A stretch of DNA of 64,000 nt from NCBI GenBank assembly GCA_900318405.1, contig ONKP01000002.1:43063-107062 (forward strand), given 5' to 3'. This document shows, one piece after another, positions 16,114-18,759 of this stretch. How positions within the stretch are numbered: position 1 is the first letter of the stretch; every line of letters starts with the position of its first letter. The notes below the pieces were generated by a model. It was not told the DNA's origin. It worked only from the letters and a program-made list of their open reading frames with translations, and made no database searches. The position numbers and the translations under genes were made by a program. Source of the stretch: an uncultured Eubacteriales bacterium (GTDB lineage Bacteria; Bacillota; Clostridia; Lachnospirales; Lachnospiraceae).

Positions 16114-16239
16114 CGTTGCGGTTCATGTGTGATTCTGCTATAATGCATTTTATCTATGTGCGGAAGAAAAACCAATATATTCTTTACCTTTTTCAGTGTT
16201 TCTTTCACTCTTCCGCATCTCAGGAGGAAAAATAATCGT

Positions 16240-18759
16240 ATGGATTTCAGCAGACAGGGAATTCAGAAGGAAAAGAACGCGTCACGTTCTTCTGCGGCGA
16301 GAGCGGCAAACCGCGCCGCTGTAACAGTTCTCCGCGTCGTACTCTACATCCTCATCGCTGTGACCGTTTTCATTATCTTCATGGGGATGGGTGCATACCA
16401 GGGTATTATCGCGGACACACCGGACATCACCGATGCAAACATCATGCCTCTCGGCACGGCATCTTTCGTCTACGACGCGGACGGAAATGAGGTTCAGAAA
16501 CTCAGTACCGTCGAGGGCAACCGCGTGACGGTCAGTCTGGATGACATTCCGGTGAACATGCAGCATGCGATCGTGGCCATCGAGGACTCACGTTTCTACG
16601 AGCACAACGGCGTCGATCCTCACGGTATGATCCGTGCGATCCTCGTCGCACTCTCTTCCAACTTTGAGGAGTCCGAGGGCGCCAGTACGATCACGCAGCA
16701 GCTTCTGAAGAACAATGTATTTACCAACTGGATGAATGAGAGCCGGATCGGCAGGCTCAAGCGAAAACTTCAGGAGCAGTATCTGGCGGTCCAGCTGGAA
16801 AAATCTCTCCGGGATGCCGGTCAGGATCCGAAGGCTGTCATTCTGGAAAATTACCTGAACACGGTCAACTTCGGCTCCGGTGCTTATGGCGTGCAGACAG
16901 CCGCACAGACATATTTCGGAAAAGACGCCAAAGATCTGACGCTCTCCGAGTGCGCCGTACTGGCAGCGATCCCTCAGAACCCGAGTCAGTATAATCCGAA
17001 GGTCTATCCGGAAGAAAACGCCAAACGAATGAAAGTCGTCCTCAAATACATGCTCAACCAGGACTATATCACGGAGGACGAATATAACGAGGCTCTCCAG
17101 GATGACGTGTATTCGCGCATCAAGGACACCGATGACAGCAGCACATCGACCGAGCAGGATATCTATTCCTACTTTGTCGATGAAGTGATTGCTCAGGTTC
17201 AGAACGATCTGATGACGCAGAAGGGCTACTCAGAGTCGGAAGCTTACAACGCCATCTATAACGGCGGACTCCGGATCTATACAACTGAAGATCCTGATAT
17301 CCAGCAGATCCTGGAAGAGGAATTTGCCAACGAGGCAAACTTCCCGGCCAATGTCCAGCTTAACCTCGACTGGGCTCTCACGGTAGACAAAGCCGACGGC
17401 GAGCGGGTCAACTACAGCGTACAGAACCTGCAGACGTATTTCCAGGAAAATACAGATCCGAATTTCGACCTTTATTTTTCTTCCGAAGATGAGGCGCAGT
17501 CCTATATTGATCAGTACAAGGCGCAGGTTGTTGGATCCGGCGATACCATTGTGGCGGAGCGCACTTCCTTTGTTCCGGAACCGCAGGCCTGCATGACGGT
17601 GATTGACCAGAACACCGGCTACGTGGTCGGCATTGTCGGCGGACGCGGTGAGAAACAGGGTTCGCTGACACTCGACCGTGCCACGGATTCACTCCGTCAG
17701 CCGGAGGGAACCCTGCGCATCCTGTCAACCTACGGACCTGCCATTCAGGAAGGCGATGTCACTCTGGCTACAAAGGAGTCAACAACCGTCGCCGCTGACA
17801 CTAACAGCGATGATCATTCACACGCAGCTGCACTCACCAATATCAACATGAACGTCCGCAGCGCCATTCTCCAGGGCAGCAGTGCCATCGCCACAACGGT
17901 CCTTCAGCAGGTTACGCCGGAAACAGGGCTGAGTTATCTGAAGAGGCTCGGCTTCACCAATCTGAATGACGACAAGGACGCTTCCTCCAACCTCGCGACC
18001 GGAAGTACCACGAACGGCGTGACCAATCTGGAGCTGACAGCGGCATATGCGGCGATTGCGAACAAGGGAACCTACAACAAGCCGGTATTCTACACCAAAG
18101 TGCTGGATACGGCCGGCAACACCGTTCTGGAAAACAAGGCAATGCCCGTCTCAGTATTCGATGAATCGACCAGTTATCTCCTCACCAATGCGATGCAGGA
18201 AGAGATAGCTTCCGACGGTGCTACAGGATCCGCATTCCGCCTGGAACGCCCGGATATCGACGTTGCCGGACAGACCGGTACGACGGAAAGTGATATTGAT
18301 CTGCAGTTTGCAGGCTTTACGCCTTATTACACAGCCGGTATCTGGTGCGGATATGATTCCAGCGAATCTCTGACTGATGATGAGAAATCCTATATCGCCA
18401 CGCTCTGGACCAACGTCATGAATCGGATCGATGCGGATAAGGACGCCAAAACCTTTGAAATGCCTTCGACCGTTGAGACGCTTTCCATCTGCTCCGACTC
18501 CGGTCTTCTCGCCGGTGTCGGATGCACGCCGAAGACCGAAGTCTTCTCGATCGCCAATGCGCCGACCGAAACCTGTACAGAGCATAAACCGAAACCCACA
18601 CCGACGCCCAAGGCAACGGTCACCCCTTCGCCTACAGCGGCAGCATCCGATAACACCCAGGACGCAACGCAGGGTGATAACACAGATGCAGGTCAGGCAG
18701 GAACCCAGACGCAGGCACCGGCGACCGATAACAACGCCGCTGCTGCAACAGGCGGCTGA
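16240..18759 (+). CDS. Class A penicillin-binding protein with degenerate transpeptidase domain
   Basis: Membrane-anchored peptidoglycan synthase. A single transmembrane segment (residues ~28-52) is followed by an intact GT51 glycosyltransferase domain: catalytic Glu115 in EDSRFYEHNGVD, ASTITQQLLKN, and ILENYLNTVNFGSGAYGVQ. The transpeptidase domain is recognisable by flanking conservation, but all three active-site motifs are broken. SxxK is GTLR (490-493, in RQPEGTLRIL), SxN is G-S-S/S-S-A (546-549), and KTG is QTG (678-680, AGQTGTT). A Pro/Thr/Asn/Gln-rich tail ends the 839-aa protein. AGGAGG precedes the ATG at 16240. It is probably an active glycosyltransferase with a non-catalytic transpeptidase scaffold, unable to cross-link or bind beta-lactams (inference). 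Confidence 0.9.
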   Translation: MDFSRQGIQKEKNASRSSAARAANRAAVTVLRVVLYILIAVTVFIIFMGMGAYQGIIADTPDITDANIMPLGTASFVYDADGNEVQKLSTVEGNRVTVSLDDIPVNMQHAIVAIEDSRFYEHNGVDPHGMIRAILVALSSNFEESEGASTITQQLLKNNVFTNWMNESRIGRLKRKLQEQYLAVQLEKSLRDAGQDPKAVILENYLNTVNFGSGAYGVQTAAQTYFGKDAKDLTLSECAVLAAIPQNPSQYNPKVYPEENAKRMKVVLKYMLNQDYITEDEYNEALQDDVYSRIKDTDDSSTSTEQDIYSYFVDEVIAQVQNDLMTQKGYSESEAYNAIYNGGLRIYTTEDPDIQQILEEEFANEANFPANVQLNLDWALTVDKADGERVNYSVQNLQTYFQENTDPNFDLYFSSEDEAQSYIDQYKAQVVGSGDTIVAERTSFVPEPQACMTVIDQNTGYVVGIVGGRGEKQGSLTLDRATDSLRQPEGTLRILSTYGPAIQEGDVTLATKESTTVAADTNSDDHSHAAALTNINMNVRSAILQGSSAIATTVLQQVTPETGLSYLKRLGFTNLNDDKDASSNLATGSTTNGVTNLELTAAYAAIANKGTYNKPVFYTKVLDTAGNTVLENKAMPVSVFDESTSYLLTNAMQEEIASDGATGSAFRLERPDIDVAGQTGTTESDIDLQFAGFTPYYTAGIWCGYDSSESLTDDEKSYIATLWTNVMNRIDADKDAKTFEMPSTVETLSICSDSGLLAGVGCTPKTEVFSIANAPTETCTEHKPKPTPTPKATVTPSPTAAASDNTQDATQGDNTDAGQAGTQTQAPATDNNAAAATGG

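Follow-up and report, generated by a model that had tools for sequence, protein, structure and literature searches.

A sole class A penicillin-binding protein in a Lachnospirales genus that probably retains its transpeptidase domain without transpeptidase activity

Introduction

Can a bacterium keep the transpeptidase (TP) domain of its only class A penicillin-binding protein (PBP) when the residues that would make it a transpeptidase are gone? The question is raised by a gene in a 64,000-nucleotide stretch of DNA, here called the window, from an uncultured Eubacteriales bacterium of the family Lachnospiraceae (contig ONKP01000002.1). A first-pass annotation, made from the letters alone, saw a canonical glycosyltransferase (GT) half joined to a TP half with all three catalytic motifs destroyed, and read this as selection for a pseudo-transpeptidase rather than decay. 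Whether the TP half does more than cross-link is usually studied through engineered mutants, and here we describe natural cases in several species that have one class A PBP; as loss-bearing species stand beside intact close relatives, that role, and life without class A transpeptidation, become testable by comparison of sister species. We find that the window protein is probably (at roughly 0.62) a class A PBP that only polymerises, its TP domain maintained as a pseudo-transpeptidase and cross-linking left to other enzymes acting in trans.

Results

Gene, start site and domain architecture

The gene lies in a single frame, open throughout as first described, at 16156-18759 of the forward strand, with 867 codons as called mechanically. 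An AGGAGG ribosome-binding site precedes ATG 16240 and, in the congener G005, a stop codon stands immediately 5' of the matching MDFSRQG start, which together make 16240 the likely true start. Orthologue matches within the genus begin at residues 24-30 of the 867-residue frame, and the 28 extra residues given by the mechanical start (16156-16239) are without support. The catalytic glutamate of the GT half is Glu115 when counted from 16240 and Glu143 when counted from 16156 (Table 1).

Pfam finds a full GT51 domain (PF00912, residues 110-299, 196.4 bits), followed in the same chain by a weaker match to PF00905 (residues 479-712), which at 63.7 bits still stands above its cut-off of 22.1; the protein thus has the architecture of a class A PBP and not that of a monofunctional glycosyltransferase, from which the TP domain is absent. 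Orthology agrees, as congeneric proteins are 57-75% identical to it over full-length matches. The GT half has the sequence of a canonical GT51 peptidoglycan glycosyltransferase, with EDSRFYEHNGVD and ASTITQQLL intact, much as the first-pass annotation had it, and the catalytic Glu is present in 161 of 161 proteins compared (15 from congeners, 146 from outside the genus). Gene order around the pbp gene is common to most congeners; in G006 (L047) and G008 (L046) the gene has the opposite orientation, with respect to the adjacent yigZ, hprK and uvrC, from that in the other congeners.

Table 1. Positions in the window of the features of the class A PBP gene
Feature	Coordinates	Strand	Basis
Class A PBP gene from likely start	16240..18759	+	AGGAGG; stop codon in G005; starts of orthologue matches
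GT51 domain (PF00912), intact	16483..17052	+	Pfam; catalytic Glu kept in 161/161 proteins
GT motif EDSRFYEHNGVD with Glu143 (Glu115 from 16240)	16582..16617	+	sequence
GT motif ASTITQQLL	16681..16707	+	sequence
TP domain (PF00905), predicted folded, catalytic residues gone	17590..18291	+	Pfam; AlphaFold
SxxK position, Gly518-Thr-Leu-Arg521 (GTLR)	17707..17718	+	alignment with PDB class A PBPs and orthologues
Loop ahead of SxN position, residues 548-558	17797..17829	+	pLDDT block 39 vs 89 in intact G011
SxN position, Gly574-Ser-Ser576 (GSS)	17875..17883	+	alignment with PDB class A PBPs and orthologues
Ser617 in place of near-invariant Gly	18004..18006	+	Gly changed in 7/7 loss-bearing, 0/8 intact congeners
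KTG position, Gln706-Thr-Gly708 (QTG)	18271..18279	+	alignment with PDB class A PBPs and orthologues
C-terminal tail rich in Pro/Thr/Ala	18586..18756	+	direct reading of translation

Loss of the transpeptidase motifs

Where an active D,D-transpeptidase carries SxxK, SxN and KTG, the window protein reads GTLR, GSS and QTG. The best PDB match found by phmmer, 7u4h (titled Pbp1a from Chlamydia trachomatis), sets GSTMK opposite EGTLR, SIN opposite GSS and GKTGTT opposite GQTGTT, the PDB class A PBPs being matched in several stretches. Together with the orthologue alignments, this bears out the losses originally called at SxxK and KTG; of the two candidates named for SxN, GSS or SSA, the alignments place GSS at that position and SSA falls away. 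A motif scan finds no intact SxxK/SxN/KTG set elsewhere in the TP domain of the window protein: its sole SxxK is SYLK at 593, the Ser of which is not conserved in G005, SDD at 551 and SSN at 610 resemble SxN but lie away from the aligned position, and [KRH][TS]G occurs nowhere in the whole protein.

The orthologue of G005, 75% identical, carries changes at the same five catalytic sites, all of them near-invariant among 114 intact relatives, so that the loss in the window protein is more than chance; GTLR and QTG are common to the two proteins, so that it is older than their split. The near-invariant Gly replaced by Ser617 played no part in selecting the loss-bearing proteins among which it is always changed. 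Judged by its residues, the window TP domain would be unable to perform the known transpeptidase chemistry.

Loss-bearing and intact orthologues

The genome that holds the window (2.18 Mb, 91 contigs, 91.66% complete) contains one GT51 and four PF00905 matches above the cut-off. The orthologue is the only GT51 found in each of 15 of the 16 congeneric genomes, this one included; no GT51 or class A PBP is found in the sixteenth, G010, which is 67% complete. Orthologues with like losses do exist: catalytic residues are gone in 7 of the 15 congeners, probably through several events and with differing replacements (Table 2), and the other eight have all three motifs intact. Six of the seven are altered in every motif, among them G007, which retains the Ser of SxxK; G001 is altered in SxxK only.

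Table 2. Residues at the three TP motif positions of the loss-bearing proteins
Protein	SxxK	SxN	KTG
Window protein	GTLR	GSS	QTG
G005	GTLR	GNS	QTG
G003	GTFR	TNN	ETG
G013	GTFR	VNN	ETG
G015	NALE	TNE	DQG
G007	SALS	TMN	TVG
G001	TTLT	SNN	KTG

Beyond the genus, the TP motifs are intact in 145 of 146 class A proteins (15+25+60+6+40 rows, the last 40 from the family and other families of the order; G066 and G049 contribute two rows each, and six loci may duplicate genomes already in the set). All 106 rows of the first outside set are intact, the third motif having been scored by eye. The counts leave out G010, the 6 of 160 family genomes with no match at 1e-110, some of the matched genomes (G021 and G054 among them), and a second copy in G195. 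The single outside exception, L248 (G195:C102), has STFQ for SxxK with its other motifs intact and sits next to a second class A PBP copy. We found no description of natural loss of class A transpeptidase motifs in open-licence papers, a weak absence given that scope.

Number of independent losses

A single loss inherited by all seven proteins is rejected by the three class B PBPs (AU p = 0.004, 2357 columns) and, on a quick tree, by a larger concatenation of class B PBPs, RodA, HprK, UvrC, cyclophilin, YigZ and the GT domain (AU p = 0.00016), the tested groups having been defined after sight of a first tree. With loss taken as irreversible, hand counts give four losses on the class B and concatenated trees (the window protein with G005; G007; G015; and G001 with G003 and G013), whereas the GT-domain tree calls for three and the TP-domain tree for two. 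Equal-cost parsimony with regain permitted needs only 2-3 changes; regain of the catalytic set was put aside as implausible, which is a judgement. A clade of the window's genome (G000) with G005, G007 and G015 is not rejected by the class B PBPs (p = 0.297) and is rejected by the larger set (p = 0.023). Nor is G007 with G015 rejected by the larger set (p = 0.355), or, with class B PBPs only, G015 with G000 and G005 (p = 0.434) or G007 with G000 and G005 (p = 0.176), and the long branches of G007 and G015 add doubt to the count. That the replacements differ, and that G007 retains its Ser, is in keeping with separate histories. At least two losses can safely be concluded, and three or four are likely.

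Retention of the transpeptidase domain

AlphaFold predicts the window protein about as confidently as the intact protein of G011 (mean pLDDT 86.8 and 86.7), with a like TP layout save for one loop, and most pLDDT blocks in the window TP domain fall at 89-98; each of these two structure jobs used an alignment of 80 of the 117 proteins prepared. A Foldseek search of the PDB ranks full-length class A PBPs first (2olv, TM 0.77 by target length). G003 (L020) and G013 (L021) carry an insertion of about 30 residues in the TP domain ahead of SxN, where the window protein is modelled with low confidence.

Conservation was read from near-invariant columns, taken to be those with a constancy of 95% or more across 114 intact proteins (106 outside and eight congeneric, a set that predates the last 40 outside rows). 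At 59 such TP columns the seven loss-bearing proteins differ at 9-13 and the eight intact congeners at 0-1, while at 56 such GT columns all 15 congeners differ at 0-1. Across the seven, changes fall in 28 of 42 cells of the six catalytic columns and in 47 of 371 cells of the other 53 TP columns, an excess that is partly built in, as motif changes were the basis for picking the seven.

Pairwise substitution rates point to purifying selection on the altered domain. Between the window protein and G005, the NG86 method gives dN 0.244, dS 1.39 and a ratio of 0.18 for the TP stretch (YN00: 0.237, 1.949 and 0.12), and dN 0.065, dS 1.625 and a ratio of 0.04 for the GT stretch; between G003 and G013 the NG86 values are 0.205, 1.378 and 0.15 (TP) and 0.031, 1.324 and 0.02 (GT). 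As dS approaches or exceeds 1 in most pairs, these NG86 values are rough. Close intact pairs (G006-G008, G009-G012, G002-G004, G002-G011, G004-G011 and G014-G011) have TP ratios of 0.02-0.06, whereas distant intact pairs (G002-G009, G008-G002 and G025-G118) reach 0.13-0.18, similar to the loss-bearing pairs, so that the ratio alone is no marker of the altered proteins. Identity tells a similar story: the window protein and G005 are 69.3% identical in TP and 74-77% in their class B PBPs, and G003 and G013 72.5% and 74-85%, while in six intact pairs the TP domain is mostly better conserved than the class B PBPs, except that one class B type scores higher in G009-G012. The TP domain thus changes faster in the loss-bearing pairs than in close intact relatives, and part of the signal is relaxed constraint. 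By these sequence comparisons, selection on the domain appears relaxed yet still purifying; the original claim of selection rather than decay stands as to maintenance and has to be softened as to strength.

The main rival to a maintained pseudoenzyme is that the TP domain became redundant and stays only as a folded neighbour needed by the GT half, with no part in regulation. Such passenger retention would fit the TP tip branches, which relative to the class B tree are longer in the seven (median 1.13, range 0.92-2.0) than in the eight intact congeners (median 0.72, range 0.17-1.07), with overlapping ranges, and also the loop ahead of SxN, which is modelled with low confidence and varies in length among the loss-bearing species. 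We nevertheless consider it unlikely, since dN/dS is well below 1 in both loss-bearing pairs, none of the seven proteins is changed at 37 of the 53 near-invariant TP columns outside the catalytic set, and their genes carry no stop codon within the GT or TP stretch. With an open frame, the same predicted fold, conserved columns and dN/dS of about 0.12-0.18, the TP domain is retained and is not decaying.

Less probable still is a change of chemistry, in which the domain would use another residue, or would sense the stem peptide or some other ligand without turnover. The Ser nucleophile of G007 (SALS), the SNN and KTG of G001 and the replacement of Gly617 in 7/7 could be taken that way, but the replacements vary by lineage (GTLR, SALS, NALE, GTFR, TTLT) and share no common new active site, and the window protein offers no alternative SxxK/KTG set. 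Errors in the drafts, or an additional intact class A PBP missing from the assemblies, are a highly improbable source of the pattern: all genomes are drafts and the loss-bearing ones are 77-94% complete, so that a second copy could be missed in any one of them, but seven separate assemblies show the loss, derived states are shared in two species pairs, gene order around pbp is conserved in most congeners, and one GT51 is found in each of 15 genomes, four of which are 99% complete and belong to congeners of the intact type.

Other wall enzymes

The class B PBPs have SxxK, SxN and KTG intact in 45 of 45 cases (three types in each of 15 genomes). SEDS matches occur in all 16 genomes, three in each except G003, which has two, and two class B genes of the window's genome adjoin a SEDS gene (contigs C17 and C35). 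A Peptidase_S11 (D,D-carboxypeptidase) gene follows a class B PBP-SEDS pair at L113:5047-6096 (C17 of the window's genome) and at L099:4693-5850 (G008). YkuD matches are likewise present in all 16 genomes, at 2-7 each, and the SxGC motif is found in 4/4 copies of the window's genome and 4/5 of G005. Extra L,D-transpeptidases were considered as compensation and rejected, as the counts in loss-bearing (3-7) and intact species (2-5) do not separate. Intact congeners own the same other enzymes, which therefore account for tolerance of the loss and not for its cause.

Discussion

We favor a polymerase-only class A PBP in which the GT51 domain, to judge from its sequence, would polymerise lipid II. 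The TP domain, having lost its nucleophile, general base, SxN and KTG lysine, would persist as a folded pseudoenzyme; its most likely part is to lend the protein stability and to steer or regulate both the polymerase and the proteins that partner it. Cross-links between the strands would be made by the three intact class B PBPs, by L,D-transpeptidases or by both, with tetrapeptides presumably supplied by the D,D-carboxypeptidase. Two further proposals of the first-pass annotation, that the domain recruits or regulates class B PBPs and that the protein is blind to beta-lactams, draw on chemistry and analogy and may hold; one beta-lactam target fewer would then be expected in these bacteria.

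More tentatively, and with somewhat less than even confidence, we suggest that this Lachnospirales genus has made its sole class A PBP polymerase-only at least twice, and probably three or four times, passing from partial (G001, G007) to full loss, with the pseudo-TP domain serving as an allosteric or docking domain and class B PBPs and L,D-transpeptidases performing the cross-linking. If true, these species would offer a natural series of increasing loss of an activity reported to be indispensable to C. difficile (PMC12539705).

In that study, C. difficile has a single class A PBP1 and five L,D-transpeptidases, PBP1 S487A fails to support growth although septa still form with the TP-dead protein, and functional FtsW/FtsI orthologues are lacking. 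The likeness lies in a lone class A PBP alongside several L,D-transpeptidases. The TP activity needed for growth there is, by sequence, naturally missing from the window protein, and the growth failure of S487A speaks against easy dispensability of class A TP activity; in the genus described here each genome encodes two or three SEDS proteins and class B PBPs come in three types, unlike C. difficile with no functional FtsW/FtsI in that account. For E. coli, PMC5089857 reports that the GT activity of PBP1b, the S510A form included, suffices together with YcbB and DacA. There too class A GT activity is in use with TP activity dispensable, and the window's genome has a similar enzyme set, but the E. 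coli state was selected or drug-driven, whereas that of the window's species would be natural and fixed. A monofunctional glycosyltransferase likewise works as a GT51 without transpeptidation, yet the window protein keeps a full TP domain. It is most like the bifunctional class A PBPs (GT51 with PF00905) of its own family and order, with which it shares domain order, GT motifs and predicted TP fold, and from which it differs in the loss of the TP catalytic residues that 145 of the 146 outside proteins keep.
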